Virus record (IMG/VR): IMGVR_UViG_3300036870_000068
Coordinates: 1-23,708 of that record
Strand: one strand, 5' to 3'
Origin: a virus
DNA: 23,708 bases
This document shows, in pieces, positions 5,182 through 23,039 of the stretch. A program made the translations under genes and the position numbers. Below the pieces are notes generated by a model. The model worked only from the letters and a program-made list of their open reading frames with translations, had not been told where the DNA came from and did no database searches. Each line of letters starts with the position of its first letter. Positions within the stretch are counted from its first letter, which is position 1.

Positions 5182-6063
5182 TTACGCGGCCAGCGCGGTT
5201 TCTGCGAGTGCAAGATTGCGGAGGTAGTCGGCCGCGGCTTGCGCCTTGGACGCGGCGGTAAAGAAGGCGCGGTTGTCAGCCTTTAGCAGCTGGATCCAGT
5301 TTTCGATGTAACCGGCATGGCGCAAATCCCCATCAAGCGAGAATTCGGCGCACAAGAACGCGGCGCATAGTTCGGCAATCAGTTCTTCCGCCGCGTAGGC
5401 CTTCTCGCCGAACCGGTTGCGCAAGTCCCGGTCAAGCCGCGACTTGTGCCCTGTCCAATGTCCGAGTTCGTGAAACGCGGTGGTATAGAAGTTTGCCGCG
5501 TTCTTGAATGCTTCGAACCGCGGCAGGCTGATGAAGTCATCGCCCGGGCGGTAGTAGGCCTCACCCGCGCCTTCCTGGATGGTGGCGCCGCTCGCGGCCA
5601 TGAATTCATCAATGGTCGCGTCGCGTTCATCCGGATTGCGGACCTTGATTTCGCCAAGCGACATGACGCGTTCGGGCAGGTTCTCGCATTGCGCCACGTT
5701 GAACACGGTATATTCCCGCATCATCGGGATAAGCCGCGTGTCGCCTTCCTCCGCCGTCTCGCGCTTGTCGGCCACGGACAGCTGCTTGACGAAATAGACC
5801 TTGGCGCCGTGCTCGCCTTTGCGGACGTTGCCGCCAAGCTCCAAGGCCTGCTTGAACGTGAGATAGCGCGGTGTGGGATAGCCTGCATTTGCGGCCATCC
5901 AGAGCAGCACCACGTTGCAACCGCTGTAGGGCCGGTTCGTGGCTGCGTTGCACGGCACGTTGGCGCCCGGAGTTGCGGACCATGGCTTGATCCAGGGCGC
6001 GGCGCCGCGCTCGAGCTCGGAGACAATGCGTGCGGACACTTCTGTATATAGATCGCGCTTCAT
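5182..6063 (-). CDS. ardC: ArdC-like antirestriction protein (ssDNA-binding domain plus zincin-like metallopeptidase)
   Basis: The product is 293 aa from ATG 6063 (MKRDLYTEVSARIV), with AAGGAAA upstream. Residues 1-110 match the ArdC N-terminal domain (RGAAPWIKPWS, RPYSGCNVVLLWM, LGGNVRKGEHGAKVYF), known in plasmid ArdC proteins to bind single-stranded DNA. The C-terminal half is a zincin-like metallopeptidase with FHELGHWTGH (H198, E199, H202) and a downstream EEL (E226-E227) likely to supply the third zinc ligand. Length equals the usual ArdC size of about 300 aa and the active site looks intact. ArdC proteins protect incoming DNA from type I restriction; whether this one does so here is inferred. 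The minus-strand leader resembles that of the next upstream gene. Confidence 0.9.
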   Translation of the reverse strand: MKRDLYTEVSARIVSELERGAAPWIKPWSATPGANVPCNAATNRPYSGCNVVLLWMAANAGYPTPRYLTFKQALELGGNVRKGEHGAKVYFVKQLSVADKRETAEEGDTRLIPMMREYTVFNVAQCENLPERVMSLGEIKVRNPDERDATIDEFMAASGATIQEGAGEAYYRPGDDFISLPRFEAFKNAANFYTTAFHELGHWTGHKSRLDRDLRNRFGEKAYAAEELIAELCAAFLCAEFSLDGDLRHAGYIENWIQLLKADNRAFFTAASKAQAAADYLRNLALAETALAA

Positions 6064-7722: not shown

Positions 7723-9180
7723 TTATGTCCATCCCATTGCGGAGATGCGGGGGCGGTCCTTCACGCGAGGCTTTGGCACCAGGCGCCGCGAGAATTCGGA
7801 GATCAGGCCGCCGTGCACGACCAGGCAGATGTACTGCAGGCAGTCGGCGATGTGCGAGAAGCCCTCCTTGTCGAATTTCTCCGGCACTGTGCGCAGCGCG
7901 CCGTCTCTGTGCTTGCGAAAGCGGTAGCCGCCCGACATGGCCCGCGCCAGCCATGGGCAGCCTTTCGCGCTGATCATCAGCGCCGGGCCGCCGTTGACCT
8001 GCCTGCCGAGCAGCGCCTCGACGGCGCGCAGCCGCGCGTCGATGTCGTTGGTGGGGGCGGGGAAGCACGGCAGTCCCATGCGCTTGAGCGCTTCGAAGCA
8101 GCTCTCTTCGGCGATCACGCCCTTGGCGCCGCCGGAGGGATCGCCCACCACGATGATCCGCATGCCGAGAAACTTGTCGTGGAACAGCGCCGGGCGCAAG
8201 GATTGCTCGACGTGCTTTTCCAGCCCGACATTGACGGCCGCGACTTCCCGATGGATCAGCAGACGGCCGAGATGATCCACCTGGCCGATCAGGGACCAGG
8301 GATTCCGGCCGAAGTCCTGGCCGACCACCAATGGGTAGCCGGGGATTATCAGCGTCTCCCCGACGATGTGGAACGACGGCTTGAAGGTGTTTTTGAAAAC
8401 CGCTTCTCCGCTGGGGTCGTCGCCGTATTGCGCATAGACGTAGCGCTTCACCCAGGCGTCGTCGGTGCCGTACATCTGGATGAACTGCTCATAGTACCTG
8501 CGGCCTTGCGCGACCCGGGCTGGATGGCCGAACGGCAGCGTTTTCGTCTCCTCGGTTTGCAGGAGATAGTTGAGGTTTTCGGCGTTGGGCGCCATGCCGC
8601 TCGGTTGAATGAACACCTGCCAGTTCGGCGGCGGCGCGGTCATGAATTTGTGCCAATCGGACATCTCGACCGGCATGTTGGTGTCGGCGATGATCCCGAA
8701 CCAGGTCGGGACGCCGCGATTTCCGCTGGGATAACGGCCGATGCGTCCGCTGATCGGCGCGAGGACGTCGAAATTCATCTCGATCGCCTCGGAGAGCCAC
8801 GCGCCCGTGAGCTGCATCGAGAGCAGGCGGGCCTGGTCCTCGGCGTTTTCGAGCGGGACGAAGATCCACTCCGATCTGACGTCGCCGAAATTCAGGTAGT
8901 AGGTGTTCTCGCTCACCTTCCACTCGCCGAGACCGGCGAGCCACGACTGGCAGTCCTTGAGGACGGTGTCTTTCAGTTGCTTGAGCGTTTGCCGCACGAA
9001 GGCGAATCGCGTGTAGCGATAGCCGTCCGGCGCCAGGCCTTGCGACAGCGCGCGGCGCAGGCATTCCATGATGCAGGATGTGGTTTTGCCGCTGCCGACC
9101 GGTCCCGCGACGATGCGGCCGAACGCTTCGCTCTTCATGAAGCGGCCGCAGGTCGGCGGCGCGGTGTAGATGACGGTCAT
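7723..9180 (-). CDS. terL: Terminase large subunit (ATPase-nuclease packaging motor)
   Basis: The start is ATG 9180 (MTVIYTAPPTCGRF), giving 485 aa; the open frame extends upstream through the collagen-like gene, but without homology. The N-terminal ATPase has Walker A GPVGSGKT (26-33) and a Walker B-like segment TGAWLSEAIEM (125-135). The C-terminal RNase H-like nuclease shows acidic residues in QDFGR (D289), VGDPSG (D347) and HIADCLQY (D446). All expected motor elements are intact and the length is normal. The enzyme packages DNA into proheads through the portal and cuts the concatemer. It is the last gene of the minus-strand packaging operon, convergent with the winged-helix gene, while portal and capsid lie on the other strand. 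Confidence 0.95.
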   Translation of the reverse strand: MTVIYTAPPTCGRFMKSEAFGRIVAGPVGSGKTTSCIMECLRRALSQGLAPDGYRYTRFAFVRQTLKQLKDTVLKDCQSWLAGLGEWKVSENTYYLNFGDVRSEWIFVPLENAEDQARLLSMQLTGAWLSEAIEMNFDVLAPISGRIGRYPSGNRGVPTWFGIIADTNMPVEMSDWHKFMTAPPPNWQVFIQPSGMAPNAENLNYLLQTEETKTLPFGHPARVAQGRRYYEQFIQMYGTDDAWVKRYVYAQYGDDPSGEAVFKNTFKPSFHIVGETLIIPGYPLVVGQDFGRNPWSLIGQVDHLGRLLIHREVAAVNVGLEKHVEQSLRPALFHDKFLGMRIIVVGDPSGGAKGVIAEESCFEALKRMGLPCFPAPTNDIDARLRAVEALLGRQVNGGPALMISAKGCPWLARAMSGGYRFRKHRDGALRTVPEKFDKEGFSHIADCLQYICLVVHGGLISEFSRRLVPKPRVKDRPRISAMGWT

Positions 9181-9202
9181 CGACTCTCGAGGCGCCGGTC
9201 CG

Positions 9203-9433
9203 TTATTTTCTGGCGTGGTGCTGCGCGGCCGCGCCGGTCGGGCCGGTTGCGCCTGTCGCACCTGTCGCGCCTGTCGCGCCGCCGAGAACCACGGCGTGGG
9301 CGGAGATTTCGCACTCTGACCCTGCCGATGTGGCGTCGATGATCTGCTGGATCGCCTGCTCGCGCGTGTTGGCGTCGACGATGTCGACTTGCCATGGTCC
9401 AGTGGTGCGGTGGCGAACGGCATACTGAGTCAT
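9203..9433 (-). CDS. Small protein with a mini-collagen tail
   Basis: The product is 76 aa from ATG 9433 with GAGGA upstream. The N-terminal 48 residues (MTQYAVRHRTTGPWQVDIVDAN, then TREQAIQQIIDATS) form a small alpha/beta domain. The C-terminus is a short collagen-like run (GATGATGATGATGPTG), encoded by three near-identical 9-nt DNA repeats (about 9249-9281), then AAAQHHARK. It ends 22 nt before the large terminase start. A Gly-X-Thr run this short may trimerise or attach to a fibre; function unknown. The large terminase frame reads through this gene without stops, but its codon use there is not protein-like. Confidence 0.75.
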   Translation of the reverse strand: MTQYAVRHRTTGPWQVDIVDANTREQAIQQIIDATSAGSECEISAHAVVLGGATGATGATGATGPTGAAAQHHARK

Positions 9434-10450: not shown

Positions 10451-13018
10451 ATGGCTGTTTCCGATGCCGGCTCGACCATCGGCGCTCGCGGGGTTCTGCA
10501 ATTCGCCACTCCGGCCATGCTGGAGGCGGAGGATCTGCGGCGGCAGCAGTATGCGGCTGCGGTCAATGCGCCGGCGCAGCCGACCGTGTCGCAGCTCGGC
10601 GGTTATATCCGCTCGCAGTTCGAGATTTTTCGCAACCATCGCAATACGGCATCGGGGTGGTCCAATCGTTTGATCGAGGCGTTGCGGGTCTTCAACGGTC
10701 AATATTCGACGACCAAGGAAAGGGAGATCTCCAAATTCGGCGGCTCGCAGGTTTACGCCCGGATGACGGCGCAGAAGTGCCGCGCCGCGTCGTCGCTTCT
10801 GCGCGACGTCTATCTCGGCGCCGATCGGCCGTGGTCCATCAGGCCTCCGCCGGAGCCCGAGGTGCCGCCGGAGATCCTGCAGAGCATCGACGCGATGCTG
10901 CAGCACGAAGCCGTCATGGTGCAGCAGCAGACCGGACAGCGGCCGCCGCCCGATGCCGAGACGGAGCGCAAACGGACGTTGATCGCGCAGGCTGAGGAAG
11001 TCGCCAAGAAGAAGGCGGCCGAGCAGGCGCGCAACAGCGAGGACAAGATCGAGGAGCTGTTGCGCGAGGGGCAGTTCTATCATGCCTTCGCGGAGTTTCT
11101 GGTCGATCTACCAATCTTCCCCTTTGCAGTCATAAAGGGCCCGGTGGTCAAAATCATTCCGGTGGTCAAATGGCGCGGCGGACAGCCCAACATCCAGCAG
11201 ATCCCCAGGTTGATGTGGGCCCGGGTGTCGCCGTTCGACATCTGGTGGACGCCCGGCGTCGCCGACATCGCCAACGCCAACGTCATCGAAAAGTCCCGGC
11301 TCACGCGCGCGGAGTTGAATGATCTGCTCGATCTTCCTGGCTACGACCAGGCTGAAGTCCGTGCAGCACTCCAGGATTATGCCCGCGGCGGTCTCAACGA
11401 CTATTGGGATCCGACGGACGCAGAGCGTGCAGTCCTGGAGAGTCGTGAGAACCCGGCCTGGAACCGGTCCGGGCTCATCACCATGATGGAGTTCCACGGC
11501 AATGTGCAGGGTGAAATCCTGCAGGATTACGGGATGCCGGGGGTCAGCGATCCGCTGCGCGACTATCATGTCGATGCGTTTGTCATCGGCAATCATGTCA
11601 TCAAGGCCAATCTGAGCCCCAGTCCCCGCGCGCGGCATAATTATTTCATCACCTCGTTCGAGAAGGTGCCGGGCACGCCGGTCGGCAACGGGCTGACCGA
11701 CATGATCGCCGACCTGCAGGATGTCGCCAATGCCTGTCTGCGCAGCCTGGTCAACAACATCAGCATTTCTTCCGGACCCCAGGTCGTCGTCAACGACGAT
11801 CGGTGCCGGCCCGAAGACAACACCGATGAATTATATCCGTGGAAGCGCTGGCACGTCACCAACGACCCCGTATCCAATAACGCCAAACCCCCGGTCGATT
11901 TTTTCAGTCCCCAATCCAACGCCCAGGACCTGTTGACGGTCTTCAAGGCGTTCCAGGAGCTGGCCGACGACGTCAGCGCGATTCCTAAATATATCGGCGG
12001 CCAGGCGGGTTCCGGCGGCGCCGGGCGCACGGCGTCGGGCCTCGCCATGTTGATGGGCAACGCCTCCAAGATCCTGCAGACGGTCGCCGCCAACATCGAT
12101 CGCGACGTCATCGAGATCTCGCTGCAGCAGCTGAGCGACCTGGTGCTGCTGTCCGACACCACGGGTGTGCTCACTGGCGAAGAGGACATCTACGTGCAGG
12201 GCGTCAATGTCGCGGTCCAGCGTGAGACCCAGCGCCAGCGGCAGCTCGAGTTCCTGCAGCACACCAACAATCCGGTCGACATGGAGATCATGGGGATCGT
12301 CGGCCGCGGCTCGGTGCTGCGGGCGGTGGCCCAGACCATCGGGCTCGACGGCGAGGTGGTGGTGCCCGACGATCAGACCTTGGAGAAGAAGCAGAAAGAA
12401 CAGGGCGACCAGAAGCAAACCAAGGCGATCAACGAGGAGGTCGACAAGGGGATCCAGGCCGGCGTCGAGCTCGGGATCCAGAAGTTCACCGCCGAGATCA
12501 TCCAGGGTTATCTCGCCGCCAGCGCCCAACCCGATCTCGCGCAACCTGGTGCGGGTCAGCCCGGAGGTCCACCCCCTCTCGGTCCCCCAGGCCCGCCCGG
12601 TGCAGGTGGTCCGCCCTCGACGGGTGTCGGCGGACCACCTCGCCTCCTCGCCATCCCGGGCGGCATGGCCGATATGGCGGCGCAGGCCCAGGGCGCCAGG
12701 CTTCGCCGATGTCCAATGCTTCGGCGCCCGTCACCAGTCTCACCGGTAGCCAACCGCAGAATGTTCCAGGGCAGCGACTTAGGCCGATCGCCGGAGGCCC
12801 GGGGTGACGCGGATCGTCTGGAACGGCATCGTCAGGAACGAGTCGAAGATCATCGACCGATGCGTCGAGAGCCTGATTCCACACGTGAGCGGCGGCATTG
12901 TGGTCGACACCGGATCGACGGACGACACCGTCGACAGGATCAATCGGCTCTTTACGTCTGCGCAAAAGCCGCTCGAAATCCATCACGCGCCTTTCGTCGA
13001 TTTTTCCCAGGCGCGTAA
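10451..13018 (+). CDS. Portal protein; C-terminal tail appears frame-shifted
   Basis: Starts MAVSDAGSTIGARGVLQF at ATG 10451; the open frame is 855 aa. The body (residues 1-715) is a portal (head-tail connector): a helical N-terminus (GGYIRSQFEIFRNHRN, LRVFNGQYS), a charged helix (AQAEEVAKKKAAEQARNSEDKIEELL), a wing/clip region (WWTPGVADI, EKVPGTPVGNGL) and a C-terminal helix with QERETQRQ-like coiled segments (QRETQRQRQLEFLQHTNNP). About residues 700-730 are proline/glycine-rich. After about 12694 the frame stops looking like protein and runs 215 nt into the glycosyltransferase gene. The -1 frame from there reads QASPMSNASAPVTSLTG to GPG and ends at 12805-12807, overlapping the GTG start of that gene. 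Confidence 0.9.
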   Translation: MAVSDAGSTIGARGVLQFATPAMLEAEDLRRQQYAAAVNAPAQPTVSQLGGYIRSQFEIFRNHRNTASGWSNRLIEALRVFNGQYSTTKEREISKFGGSQVYARMTAQKCRAASSLLRDVYLGADRPWSIRPPPEPEVPPEILQSIDAMLQHEAVMVQQQTGQRPPPDAETERKRTLIAQAEEVAKKKAAEQARNSEDKIEELLREGQFYHAFAEFLVDLPIFPFAVIKGPVVKIIPVVKWRGGQPNIQQIPRLMWARVSPFDIWWTPGVADIANANVIEKSRLTRAELNDLLDLPGYDQAEVRAALQDYARGGLNDYWDPTDAERAVLESRENPAWNRSGLITMMEFHGNVQGEILQDYGMPGVSDPLRDYHVDAFVIGNHVIKANLSPSPRARHNYFITSFEKVPGTPVGNGLTDMIADLQDVANACLRSLVNNISISSGPQVVVNDDRCRPEDNTDELYPWKRWHVTNDPVSNNAKPPVDFFSPQSNAQDLLTVFKAFQELADDVSAIPKYIGGQAGSGGAGRTASGLAMLMGNASKILQTVAANIDRDVIEISLQQLSDLVLLSDTTGVLTGEEDIYVQGVNVAVQRETQRQRQLEFLQHTNNPVDMEIMGIVGRGSVLRAVAQTIGLDGEVVVPDDQTLEKKQKEQGDQKQTKAINEEVDKGIQAGVELGIQKFTAEIIQGYLAASAQPDLAQPGAGQPGGPPPLGPPGPPGAGGPPSTGVGGPPRLLAIPGGMADMAAQAQGARLRRCPMLRRPSPVSPVANRRMFQGSDLGRSPEARGDADRLERHRQERVEDHRPMRREPDSTRERRHCGRHRIDGRHRRQDQSALYVCAKAARNPSRAFRRFFPGA
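12694..12807 (+). other. Alternative reading frame of the portal C-terminus
   Basis: Reading one base back from the portal frame, codons from 12694 give a hydrophilic tail (beginning QASPMSNAS) that stops with TGA at 12805-12807, overlapping the GTG start of the glycosyltransferase. This normal overlap geometry suggests a one-base deletion, a sequencing error, or a frameshift site. No classical slippery heptamer is present. Confidence 0.45.
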
Positions 13019-14783
13019 CGCTGCGTTGCATGCCGCGCGGCAGAGCGCGATGCCGTGGGATTATCTTTTGCTCGCCGATGCCGATATGGAGCTGGTGGTG
13101 ACGCGGCCCGACTGGCTCAACGGTCATGATGGAAGCGCGTACGACCTCAAGCAGTTTGGCGGGGCGCTCGGTTATTACAATCGGCGTTTGGTGCATCGTG
13201 GCGCGACGGGTGACTATCAAGGCGTTACCCACGAATACCTCGATATCCCGACCGCCGGCGTGCTCGACGGCGCGTTTTTCAAGGATCACGCCGACGGCGC
13301 CAACCGGCTGCAGAAATTTCAGCGCGACATTGCTTTGCTCGAAGAGGCGATGAAGACCGAAACGCGTCCCGGCATGCTCCAGCGCTACGAATTCTATCTT
13401 GCGCAGTCCTACTTCGACGCCGGCGAGCCAGCCAAAGCTTTGGAGCATTATCGCAAGCGGGTCACGCTCGGTGGTTTTCCGGAGGAGTGCTGGTACGCCC
13501 AGCGCAAGATCGCCTTGTGTCGCGAGAAGCTCCATATGCCCGCCGAGTTTGTGTGGGAGGCATTGGCGGCTTATCGGATGCGGCCGCATCGAGCCGAGCC
13601 GTTGTGCGATCTGGCGCGGTTCTTCCGTGAGCGTGGAGAGAGTTTCACCTCGCTGCTGTTCTCCGAAGCTGGATTGATCACCCCGTTCCCGAGCAGCGAC
13701 CGGCTGTTCATCAACGAATACACCTATCGGGCAGGCATCAAGGAAGAGTTCTCGATCTGCGCTTTCTACGATCCGGCGCGCCGGTCCCGCGGCGCCAAGG
13801 CTGCCGATCAGCTTGCATTGAGCGGCAGCGAGCAGGCGAAGATCAATCTTTATTGGTATCTGCAGCCGCTCCGCGCCGATGTGCCGTCGTTCAAGGCGGA
13901 GCGGATCGGGATCGATGTGCCGGCTGGCTGGCGCGCCCTCAATCCGTCTGTGATCGTTTTCAACGGCAAGATCGTCACTTTGGTGCGGACGGTCAATTAT
14001 CGCATCGTGCAGGACGAGGCCGGCACCTGGATCAACTACGAGTCCGATGACGGCGTCATTCGCACGCGGAATTTCCTGGTGTCGGATAGTGGGCAGCAGG
14101 AAATCCACCCGCCGGCGAATTTTCCGGAGCCTCCTGCGTTTCCGCCGGTGAGAGGATTCGAGGATTCTCGTTTGTTTGAATGGAACGGCGGCTTGTGGAC
14201 ATTATCGACGGTCCGGGAGCTGGAAGAGACAGGGATCTGTCGGCAGGTGTTGGCGCCGCTGGACATTGGCCGCAGCAGCGTGCGGTATGGCGACGACTGG
14301 TCCGTCATATCGCCCGAGGTCGCCGCTCCTGCGGAGCATCAGAAGAACTGGATGCCGTGGGCGAGGGAGAACGGCGAGTTGCAGTTCGTGTACAGGCTGG
14401 GCACGTTGCTGGATTCCAGCGGCAAAGCGATTCGTCGAACCGATTGCGGTTTCGACGCCTCGAGCATCAGCGGCGGCTCTCAAGTCGTCAAAGCGGCCGA
14501 TGGGCTCTATCTCGCTGTCGTTCACGAGGCGCGCCCGGTTCCGGGCCGGGTCAGCCGTTATTACCAGCATCGCTTTGCGGCGTTGAACGGCGACGGTGTT
14601 CCGACGGGAATCTCGCCGCCGTTTTACCTTCACGATCGCCAGTATGAGTTCGTCGCCGGGCTGGCGCTGTTGCCCGATATGAAGACCCTCATCATCAGCT
14701 ACGGCGTGAACGACTGCGAGGCGTGGCATGCGACGATGAATCTCGACGAGGTGATCCAGTTCATCTGCAAGGACAAGCCGTGA
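12804..14783 (+). CDS. Bifunctional-looking glycan protein: GT2 glycosyltransferase, TPR-like middle, GH130-like propeller
   Basis: GTG 12804 starts MTRIVWNGIVRNESKII and gives 659 aa. Residues 1-150 show a family 2 glycosyltransferase: NES, VDTGSTDDT (34-42), FSQARNAAL (67-75), LLADADMEL with DAD 92-94 as the metal-binding motif, and GVTHEYL (140-146). Residues about 195-230 (YEFYLAQSYFDAGEPAKALEHYRKRV) look TPR-like. From about 370 to 640 is a five-bladed-propeller-like region with GFEDSRLFEWNGGLW (about 451), QKNWMPW (about 513) and SGGSQVV, a pattern like GH130 phosphorylases. It lies between portal and lysis genes and could modify virion or host surface glycans. GT identity is strong; the propeller assignment is recognition by pattern. 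It is coupled to its neighbour by a TGATG overlap. Confidence 0.85.
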   Translation: MTRIVWNGIVRNESKIIDRCVESLIPHVSGGIVVDTGSTDDTVDRINRLFTSAQKPLEIHHAPFVDFSQARNAALHAARQSAMPWDYLLLADADMELVVTRPDWLNGHDGSAYDLKQFGGALGYYNRRLVHRGATGDYQGVTHEYLDIPTAGVLDGAFFKDHADGANRLQKFQRDIALLEEAMKTETRPGMLQRYEFYLAQSYFDAGEPAKALEHYRKRVTLGGFPEECWYAQRKIALCREKLHMPAEFVWEALAAYRMRPHRAEPLCDLARFFRERGESFTSLLFSEAGLITPFPSSDRLFINEYTYRAGIKEEFSICAFYDPARRSRGAKAADQLALSGSEQAKINLYWYLQPLRADVPSFKAERIGIDVPAGWRALNPSVIVFNGKIVTLVRTVNYRIVQDEAGTWINYESDDGVIRTRNFLVSDSGQQEIHPPANFPEPPAFPPVRGFEDSRLFEWNGGLWTLSTVRELEETGICRQVLAPLDIGRSSVRYGDDWSVISPEVAAPAEHQKNWMPWARENGELQFVYRLGTLLDSSGKAIRRTDCGFDASSISGGSQVVKAADGLYLAVVHEARPVPGRVSRYYQHRFAALNGDGVPTGISPPFYLHDRQYEFVAGLALLPDMKTLIISYGVNDCEAWHATMNLDEVIQFICKDKP

Positions 14784-17503: not shown

Positions 17504-19387
17504 ATGGCCGTTCTCAGCACTGTCGGCGTCACTATCGCCGCCGGCGAGTCGTTGTCGACCGTGGCGGACTGCATCGCCGCCAACAGGATCGCGCGCCTCA
17601 TCATGCCGACGGCATGGACGCCAGCGCCGCTGTCGTTTCTGTTGTCGGTCGATGGGACGACCTTTCACAATCTCTTTCACGTCGATCCGGTCACGTTTGC
17701 GTCGTATGAGGTGATCGTCCCCGCTCCCGTGGGTGGTGGGGTGGTGACGTTTCCGCCCGTGCTTGGGACCGATATTCATTTTGTCAGTATTCGCACCGGG
17801 TCCGCGGCCGCGCCCGTTCTTCAGGAGAACGACGTCACCTTCACTTTGGTGCTCGAGATGCCGTCCGGCGGTGATGGCAGCGGGACTGTGGGTCCGCAGG
17901 GGCCGCCCGGCGCGCCGGGCGCAACGGGGCCGGCGGGACCGACGGGTCTGCAAGGGATTCAAGGATTGCCCGGATCGCCCGGGACAGAGGGGCCCCAAGG
18001 GGATCCGGGTCCGCAGGGCATTCCTGGCGTCATGGGTCCGCAGGGGCCGGAAGGTCAGCTAGGTCCACAGGGTGACTCGGGAGCGACGGGGCCGCAGGGC
18101 GGCGCCGGGCCGATCGGGTTGCCGGGGCCGACAGGCGCCGGGGCTCCAGGGCCGACAGGGCCGCAGGGGTTACAAGGACCGCAGGGTCAGCAGGGGAATC
18201 CGGGGCAAACGGGTCAGCAGGGTCCGCAAGGCCAACCGGGCGATATAGGCGCGCCGGGTCCGGCAGGACCACAGGGTTCGCAAGGGGTCGTTGGTCCCGG
18301 AGGCCCCGCAGGCTCCACAGGCCCCGCAGGTCTTGCAGGCGCCACAGGCCCCGCAGGCCCGACTGCCGTCAGCGCCAATACCGGCAACCTCGCGAAGCTA
18401 GGAACGGACAATCTGCTGTTCGTGCCGGCCGTGCACCCTATCCCCGTGACCATTCAGCCGCCTTCCGGCACGCCCGCCACGCTGACACTGAACAAGGCGG
18501 CCACTGGTATCGTCGCCGCGGTCAGGGGCTCCACCAATGGCTCGCAGCGCTGGGAGTTGGACCTCGGCGACGGCACCGCCGAGAGCGGCGCCAACGCCGG
18601 CTCCGGCTTCGCTCTCAATGCTTATAGCGACACCGGAACGTTGCTGGGCAGCGTGATGACGTCGGCACGCGCGACCCAGGTCGCGGCCTTCGCCCAGAAG
18701 ATCGTCAACGGCTCGGATACCCGGTGGAAAGACGTCTCGACGCCGATCGCCGACGCGCTCGCCACAGTGCAGCAGCTCAACGGCGTGAATTACACTATCG
18801 TCGGCGACCCGTCGGGCGCCACCCACATCGGTCTCCTGGCGCAGGACGTGCAGGCTATTCTGCCTGAGGTGGTGGTCGACACCGGGACCCAGACGCTCTA
18901 CGGGATTGACTACGATCACGCGCTCGGCGTCAGCTACACCGATCTGGTCGCCCTCCTGATCGAGGCCATCAAGGAGCTGGCGCAACCAGCTCCTGCGTGC
19001 TCCATTTCCCAGGAGACCACACAGGCGATCCCTAAGAGTGTCGCTACGAAAATCCTCTATGACACGGCGGAGTACGACGTCACCTCGGCGTTCGATCTCA
19101 CCCAGGCCAGGTTCCAGCCCACTGTTGCCGGCTATTACCAGGTCAACTGCGGCTGCGGCCTGCAGGCAGGCTCGGTTGCAAGCTACAACTCGGTCTTCAA
19201 GAACGGTGTCGAGTACCGGCGCTCGACCACCAGTGATGGTCCCAACACCAGGATGTCGACACTCGTGTACCTGAACGGGACGACGGATTATGTCGAGGGG
19301 TTTGTCTACAGCGGCGGAGCTTTCAATACTGCCATTGGCGCCGTGCTGACTTCGTTTTCCGCCGCTCTGGTGCAGGCGGCCAGGTGA
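17504..19387 (+). CDS. Collagen-like fibre with S74 chaperone and C1q-like domain
   Basis: ATG 17504 has AGGAGGG upstream; the product is 627 aa. Residues 1-128 form an N-terminal domain ([33 protein letters not shown]). Residues 130-287 are collagen-like Gly-X-Y triplets, with one register break (GAGAPG, about 211-216). Residues about 300-400 are a beta-rich segment. Residues 403-492 carry an endosialidase-type intramolecular chaperone (peptidase S74) region: GSDTRWKD with Ser404 at the usual self-cleavage point, and [22 protein letters not shown]. Residues about 510-627 read as a C1q/TNF-like jelly roll ([18 protein letters not shown]). The protein probably trimerises as a virion fibre. The S74 domain is usually last; here a domain follows it. 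It starts ten bases after the one-span membrane protein. Confidence 0.85.
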
Positions 19388-21726: not shown

Positions 21727-23039
21727 ATGCCTATTGGAACCGCTGGGTTCGGTATTGCCACGTCTGGCACTACTCCCCCGCTAACTCCTGTCGGCTCAAC
21801 TGCAAATACTTTGCAGGCGACCGGCTTTATCCCTAGCCGTTGATTTTGGGGATACAAAACCCTCTCTGAATACCGGGAACGCGTCCTTGACGTAACCCGA
21901 GGGAACCGTTAGATCGGTTGGGTTTATTCCATAAGGAGTATGGAATGAATCCTGAGTATTTGGCCGGTCTTTTATGAAGGCGGACCCGCAGAGACTGAGC
22001 GAGAGGGCGGTGCAGCGAATTGCTTCACTGATGCGACAGTCCGATCCCTGCAGCGATGTTGGGAGAACGACAGAAATGGTCGTTCCGCTTGGGTGACCAA
22101 GTCTAACGCGTTAGACCGACGCGTAGTAACAGCACGGAAATCTGGTCAGCAAAGTTGGTGGAAAAGTTCTACGCATCCACCGTCCTCGCGGCGATCTCGA
22201 ACACCGACTACGAGGGCGAGATCCAGAACATGGGCGATCGTGTGAAAATTCGCACGAAGCCGACCATCACGATCCGTCCTTATCTGGCTGACGGTCTGCT
22301 TGGTTTGGACCGCCCGTCCGGCGGCACTGTCGAGCTGTATATCAGCAGCGGTTACTACTTCTCTCTCATCCTCGACGATGTGATGGAAGTGCAGTCCGAT
22401 CTCAACATCTTGTCGATGTGGAGCGACGACGCCGCCCAGCAGCTCAAGATCACTGTCGATCGTGACGTCCTCGACGGCATTGTCGGCAAGATGCACTCCA
22501 AGAACCAGGGCGCGACTGCCGGTTTTCTCTCCGGCAACCTCAATCTCGGGGTCAAGGGCACGCCGGTCACCATCGTGGGCCAGGGCGCCACCACCGGTCA
22601 GGTCAACCTGATAGATTTGCTGCTGCGCATGGGACAGTGTCTCGATGAGCAGAACATCCCGGAAGTCGGTCGTTGGGTCGTGTTGCCGGCGTGGGCCGGT
22701 AGACAGATCAAGCAATCGGAACTCCGTCAGGCTTATCTGTCGGGCGACAGCGTCTCTATCTTGCGCAACGGCCGGTTGGGGATGATCGATCGCTTCACGC
22801 TCTACATCAGCAACCTGTTGCCGAATTCGACGTCGGATTCGACCAACTTCGCTGCCGGTGAACAGCCGATCTTTGCCGGACACGCGCATGGGCTGACGTT
22901 TGCGAGCCAGATCAGCAAGGTCGAAACCTTGCGGTCTGAGCTGACGTTCGGCCAGATCCTTCGTGGTCTCCAGGTCTATGGCTATCAGGTCGTGGATACG
23001 ACCGCGCTGGTCCAGGCACAGGTCATCTCGGGAGGCTGA
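21727..23039 (+). CDS. Major capsid protein, split by a group I intron (exons 21727-21834 and 22137-23039)
   Basis: Exon 1 (ATG 21727) codes for 36 residues (MPIGTAGFGIATSGTTPPLT, then ATGFIP); unspliced RNA reaches a TGA two codons into the intron. Exon 2 begins EIWSAKLVEKFYASTVLAAI and runs to 23039. The halves join in frame to give 336 aa. The junction FIP-EIWS restores a motif typical of this HK97-fold coat family, and downstream NTDYEGEIQNMGDRVKI, DVMEVQSDLNILSMWSDDAAQQL and TFGQILRGLQVYGYQ are the usual coat features. Starting at TTG 22155 would lose the N-terminal arm. The scaffold lies upstream; the small repeat protein and adaptor lie downstream. Splicing is therefore predicted to be needed for virion assembly. 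Confidence 0.92.
21835..22136 (+). ncRNA. Group I self-splicing intron in the capsid gene
   Basis: The 302-nt insert starts after exon U21834 and ends in G22136, as group I introns require. P1: exon TATCCCT (21828-21834) with GGGGATA (21848-21854), including the U.G pair at the splice site. P10: GATTTT (21842-21847) with exon GAAATC (22137-22142). P3: CCCTCTC (21860-21866) with GAGAGGG (22001-22007). P4: CGGGA (21874-21878) with TCCTG (21950-21954). P7: GACTG (21993-21997) with CAGTC (22037-22041). P8: 22010-22016 with 22022-22028. Peripheral hairpins: TTCCATA/TATGGAA (21927-21945), GAACGAC/GTCGTTC (22065-22085), CTTGG-GTGA-CCAAG (22088-22101), a GNRA loop, and TCTAACGCGTTAGA (22102-22115). 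Element-like sequences are AATCCTGAG (Q), GCAGAGACTG (R) and GACAGTCC (S). There is no reading frame for a homing endonuclease. Confidence 0.9.

Follow-up and report, generated by a model that had tools for sequence, protein, structure and literature searches.

How can the major capsid protein (MCP) gene of a phage be expressed when its reading frame closes almost at once? In the window, by which we mean the whole 23,708-nt stretch analysed here (a 23.7-kb uncultured phage record), the MCP frame that opens at ATG 21727 meets an in-frame stop after 38 codons, and the reading frame from 22155 onward matches the major head protein phrog_267 (E 6e-41). We put the probability at roughly 93% that a group I self-splicing intron interrupts the gene at the codon boundary FIP/EIW, as the initial annotation had proposed. 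The parts of the gene are as follows.

21727..21834, + strand: MCP exon 1, 36 codons, ending in ..ATGFIP with U as its last nucleotide, delimited by alignment to uninterrupted relatives
21835..22136, + strand: group I intron, 302 nt, A21835 to G22136, last nucleotide omega-G, delimited by empty sites in relatives
22137..23039, + strand: MCP exon 2, 300 codons and a stop, starting at G22137 (GAA of EIW)

Alignment to the uninterrupted relatives confirmed the exon ends that had been claimed (U21834 and 22137) and, with them, the intron length of 302 nt. The gene is split after T21834, in codon CCT for the proline of FIP, and the intron ends in G22136, the terminal guanosine typical of group I introns, at a boundary set by the empty sites. 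Removal of 21835-22136 rejoins FIP and EIW in frame, again as claimed, and gives an open MCP frame of 336 aa (MPIGTAGF...ATGFIP followed by EIWSAKLVEKFYAST...), with ..TTTATCCCT joined to GAAATCTGG.. as the spliced junction expected from the sequence. The joined protein aligns unbroken and end to end with the uninterrupted MCP of locus L002 (88% identity), and the MCP of the window shares 65% identity with that of Rhizobium phage RHph_TM3_14A. Of the 80 IMG/VR loci that lie nearest, the majority have an uninterrupted MCP gene, in which FIPEIW is read with nothing in between; the initial annotation had asked whether homologous coat genes carry the insert as translated protein, and the in-frame stops exclude a translated insert. 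Uninterrupted sites were found at 75 of the 81 loci checked, which is the sporadic presence at a fixed site that characterizes a mobile intron.

The core helices that the initial annotation had drawn (P1 with its U.G pair, P3, P4, P7, P8 and P9) and P10 are all present in the sequence of the window, as is P5.

21828..21834, + strand: P1 5' strand UAUCCCU, in exon 1, paired with 21848-21854, the last U in a U.G pair
21842..21854, + strand: internal guide sequence, P10 half GAUUUU (21842-21847) followed by P1 half GGGGAUA (21848-21854)
21860..21866, + strand: P3 5' strand CCCUCUC, partner 22001-22007
21874..21877, + strand: P4 5' strand CGGG, partner 21896-21899
21881..21893, + strand: P5 hairpin GCGUC..GACGU, seen in the sequence and, by eye, also in relatives
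21991..21997, + strand: P7 5' strand G(A)GACUG with a bulged A, partner 22037-22042
22001..22007, + strand: P3 3' strand GAGAGGG, covarying with the 5' strand in relatives
22009..22029, + strand: P8 hairpin, 22009-22015 paired to 22023-22029 except for a C.U mismatch in the window
22037..22042, + strand: P7 3' strand CAGUCC, covarying in relatives
22046..22063, + strand: P9 hairpin CCCUGCA..UGUUGGG, one U.U mismatch
22137..22142, + strand: P10 3' strand GAAAUC, in exon 2, paired with the P10 half of the guide sequence

The terminal U of exon 1 stands opposite a G of the internal guide sequence (21828-21834 with 21848-21854), as in group I introns generally. The irregularities in the window are the C.U in P8, the U.U in P9 and a change of U to C at 21855, just past P1, and the intron folds with a z-score of -3.9.

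The relatives covary strongly at P3, P7, P8 and P9. In a set of 24 intron cores from which the homing endonuclease gene (HEG) was excised and from which the window was excluded, standard pairing of P3, P4, P7 and P8 (the P3/P7 pseudoknot included) is seen in 98.2% of cells; shuffling lowers this figure to 79.8% (0/500 shuffles) and sliding the partners to 40-50%, and 14 pairs of these helices have changed on both sides in a compensatory manner. P3 occurs in 12 distinct strand combinations, all of them paired (100% vs 80.6% shuffled), with both-side changes in 5 of its 7 pairs, and P8 in 32 combinations, 91.5% paired vs 60.8% shuffled (0/2000). P4 is paired in 97.9% of cells and has both-side changes at one pair only (U-A/G-C). 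Two positions of P7 are fully coupled over 38 introns (A-U in 28 and G-C in 10; C-G in 23 and G-C in 15), and P9, compared in 12 introns of the long type, is paired in 97.1% vs 67.3% when shuffled (0/5000). The contacts of P1 and P10 co-vary with the exons as well. Exon position -7 and its guide-sequence partner read C-G in 11, U.G in 22, U-A in 4 and C.U in 1 of the 38 introns; in P10, pairs 1-3 with the 3' exon form in 38/38 and pair 4 in 34/38 (as A-U, U-A, G-C or G-U), with compensatory changes at pairs 3-4. Against shuffles the inner three P10 pairs are exceptional (3/5000), while the six-pair total is unexceptional (439/5000).

The covariance search with the Rfam group I model RF00028, suggested in the initial annotation as a check, had a mixed outcome: the Rfam model found no group I match in the window, even at E<=10, whereas a family-specific model (R1), built from the cores of relatives with the window left out, found a single match there, at 21848-22042 (77.9 bits, E 2.5e-16). 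Model R1 also scored the other HEG-less copy, L158, at 54.8 bits, and across eight MCP loci with no interruption it gave nothing at E<=1. We read the Rfam miss as limited sensitivity of the model, because RF00028 likewise found no group I match in seven intron-bearing loci of the family and nevertheless detected further introns that lie within the MCP genes of L086, L126 and L147 (81.9, 81.4 and 52.7 bits). The miss was therefore dropped as a refutation, given these detections in the same genes and the match of the leave-out model. The intron lineage of the window lies beyond the reach of RF00028.

The initial annotation had further stated that the intron holds no endonuclease gene. No intact gene is present, but a degenerate LAGLIDADG remnant of both gene ends has been kept.

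21945..21977, + strand: N-terminal remnant of the LAGLIDADG gene, MNPEYLAGLL, its first ten codons followed by TGA, found by alignment to the L007 and L003 introns
21974..22096, + strand: C-terminal remnant of the endonuclease, 40 codons, MKADPQRLSERA...PLG and a stop, in a different frame from the N-terminal remnant and overlapping P7, P3', P8 and P9

Five relatives (L003, L007, L008, L009 and L023) carry inserts of 674-687 bp at the identical codon boundary, and the longer inserts hold a single open frame that includes a LAGLIDADG motif (YLAGLFDGEG); PF00961 scores this frame above its cut-off in L083 and below it in L003. The window insert is about 80% identical to the longer inserts on both flanks of a deletion of about 376 nt, and it descends from an intron whose LAGLIDADG gene it has lost. 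Of the 38 introns aligned over their full length, just two have no HEG, that of the window (302 nt) and that of L158 (268 nt); a homing endonuclease, which a mobile intron should encode, is deleted and frameshifted in the window and intact in nearly all relatives. That the C-terminal part of the gene was kept would be explained by the overlap of its frame with P7, P3', P8 and P9.

The family is larger than the copies found, with at least 59 distinct introns. A scan of IMG/VR with a 5' pattern yielded 74 records, equal to 59 distinct introns; all 59 are preceded by FIP, a result that is partly built in because the pattern fixes the last exon bases, and E(I/L/M/V)W follows wherever the contig extends to exon 2. 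The exon 2 motif and the MCP identity of the host genes are independent of that pattern. A 3'-core pattern, which ignores exon sequence, returned 15 records, each of them within an MCP gene and the majority at the FIP/EIW boundary. The MCPs of intron carriers go down to 22% identity to that of L003, and the five divergent host proteins that were checked all match the phrog_267 major head protein. In L090 and L092 the lineage has apparently moved a few nucleotides downstream (in L090, inside FIPEVW), with a guide sequence that fits the new site. Only 9 of 75 uninterrupted alleles have U at the third position of the proline codon. The intron alleles recovered independently of the exon sequence, of which ten are distinct (window, L003, L007, L023, L083, L086, L087, L088, L094 and L096), all have this U, which P1 needs; the bias could stem from target choice or from co-conversion, and the alleles share ancestry. 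The MCP and HEG trees are broadly congruent, sharing two main clades with local disagreements only, and we therefore do not claim frequent jumping or frequent recent homing; the trees, considered as evidence of horizontal transfer, were set aside for that use.

Several alternatives have to be weighed against a functional intron. That the insert is a splicing-dead relic, in a defective phage or on a contig from a dying lineage, could be argued from the destroyed endonuclease gene, the P8 mismatch and the one change at a family-invariant column. We consider this very unlikely, as the window is unchanged at 60 of the 61 columns that are invariant in the other 37 introns, P1, P10, P3, P4 and P7 are intact, both exons are open and conserved, and a dead intron in the MCP gene would be lethal. 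It is highly improbable that splicing is simply not needed and that translation of the MCP begins internally, for instance at TTG 22155 (294 aa): an open frame from this codon does exist and spans the MCP domain, but the N-terminal part across the junction is conserved in relatives, no Shine-Dalgarno-like sequence lies directly upstream of TTG 22155, and the covarying ribozyme core would be left unexplained. The chance that the insert is of another type (an intein, a group II intron, a translated insertion or an assembly error) is next to negligible in spite of the missing Rfam match, since in-frame stops exclude an intein or a translated insert, the structure has the P3/P7 pseudoknot of group I, and homologous inserts occur in independent contigs.

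A group I intron splitting the MCP gene is thus the reading we retain, supported by the empty sites, the leave-out model match, the compensatory changes in P3, P7, P8 and P9, the co-varying P1 and P10, and the HEG-bearing homologues at the same site. After transcription, a guanosine bound in P7 would attack behind U21834, which the internal guide sequence keeps in P1, and the freed exon 1 would then attack behind G22136, with exon 2 held in P10, to give an uninterrupted MCP mRNA. The lineage is probably mobile, normally with a LAGLIDADG homing endonuclease gene of the single-motif type, which sits in the P6 loop and reads into the ribozyme core, and the endonuclease presumably cuts intron-free MCP alleles, into which the intron would be copied. 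In the window copy this gene is dead after the loss of about 376 nt, the ribozyme and both open exons having been kept. We infer active splicing from the 60 unchanged invariant columns together with the two open exons, so that the window copy may represent a splicing-competent stage that no longer homes by itself; past homing and the loss of mobility are likewise probable from the sequence. A further-reaching proposal, which we regard as unlikely, is that one intron lineage became specialised for one codon boundary of the tailed-phage capsid protein and kept to it through very deep phage divergence, and that the HEG-less window copy may be domesticated, so that its splicing now times capsid production or keeps it in check instead of only being tolerated.

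The first ~140 codons of the MCP gene are a hotspot of intron insertion. Second group I introns recognized by RF00028 lie at L086:6563-6773, L126:6480-6750 and L147:9438-9670, in MCP genes that also carry the FIP/EIW intron. This stretch of the MCP gene also has an insert of 33 nt that contains TGA in frame; it is found at L075:303-335 and in L076, L080, L250, L251, L254 and L255 (seven contigs, fixed in two haplotypes). In L075 its last nucleotide is G, with U before and C after the insert, and visual inspection shows a P1 of 9 bp that includes U.G, next to a P10 of 5 bp, yet no catalytic core. A group I intron that is complete at 150 nt (L075:358-507) starts 22 nt downstream, splits a TTC codon of the MCP (KF/YAST) and scores 58.8 bits with model R1, although it is absent from the R1 training set. 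The 33-nt insert is possibly a non-autonomous, core-less mini-intron excised by the core of its neighbour; translational bypass or stop readthrough are possible too, and TGA terminates many other long frames on the contigs that carry it.

Elsewhere in the window, a large terminase (7723-9423, - strand) is encoded on the strand opposite to the portal and capsid genes, and a glycosyltransferase family 2 protein (12804-14783, + strand) is flanked by the portal and amidase genes. Also encoded are a tail-fibre-like protein that combines collagen Gly-X-Y repeats with a Peptidase_S74 chaperone domain (17504-19387, + strand) and an ArdC-type anti-restriction protein comprising ArdcN and a zincin-like metallopeptidase (5182-6063, - strand).

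Taken together, a large group I intron family occupies one conserved capsid-gene boundary, is missed by the Rfam model and was not found in deposited phages by the endonuclease search. A LAGLIDADG search of 50,697 deposited phages gave distant matches only and no close relative, the two distant records inspected being free-standing genes; a DNA similarity search of the intron in deposited phages and an MCP scan of bacterial and archaeal genomes found no relative. The intron lineage, and the fact that it keeps to one MCP site, seem not to have been described before: the literature searched, which covers few of the subscription journals, yielded no account of the family or of the FIP/EIW site. 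Annotation of intron-bearing phages yields truncated capsid genes, and virion production in these phages would hinge on ribozyme activity. The window copy and its relatives with and without an endonuclease form a natural series for the life cycle of a homing intron.

Among known systems, the probable group I intron in the MCP gene of mycobacteriophage LittleE, whose splicing was demonstrated by RT-PCR and N-terminal sequencing (PMC3706429), is like that of the window family in that exon 1 ends in U and the intron in G, within an MCP gene, and in a LAGLIDADG-like reading frame that it is reported to contain. Compared by description only, it differs in its length of ~820 nt, the opposite strand of that reading frame (PMC3706429) and its position at nt 496 of the gene (PMC11855218), whereas the window intron has 302 nt, a deleted HEG and a site after codon 36. 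PMC3706429 cites Tuc2009 as a further capsid-gene case. The short (265-nt) HEG-less introns of BAKA/Optimus, spliced in vivo (PMC3706429), resemble the window in interrupting a virion gene, but this is a tail gene and the phages are others. A recent survey of huge gut phages reported group I introns in the thousands, with terL as one example of a host gene, along with many nrdD genes that are interrupted (PMC12363816). With RF00028 (Intron_gpI) the window shares the P3-P9 architecture, the P3/P7 pseudoknot, the U.G in P1 and omega-G, although its family falls below detection by that model. The relatives' reading frame has the single LAGLIDADG motif of the I-CvuI/I-CreI type, with weak similarity to I-CvuI (E 0.08); unlike that type, it belongs to a phage MCP site, runs through the ribozyme core and is degenerate in the window. 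Group I introns in capsid genes are known as a kind, LittleE being the precedent, and the present case is real and ordinary in kind; what is unusual is how it keeps to one capsid site and how far it has spread.
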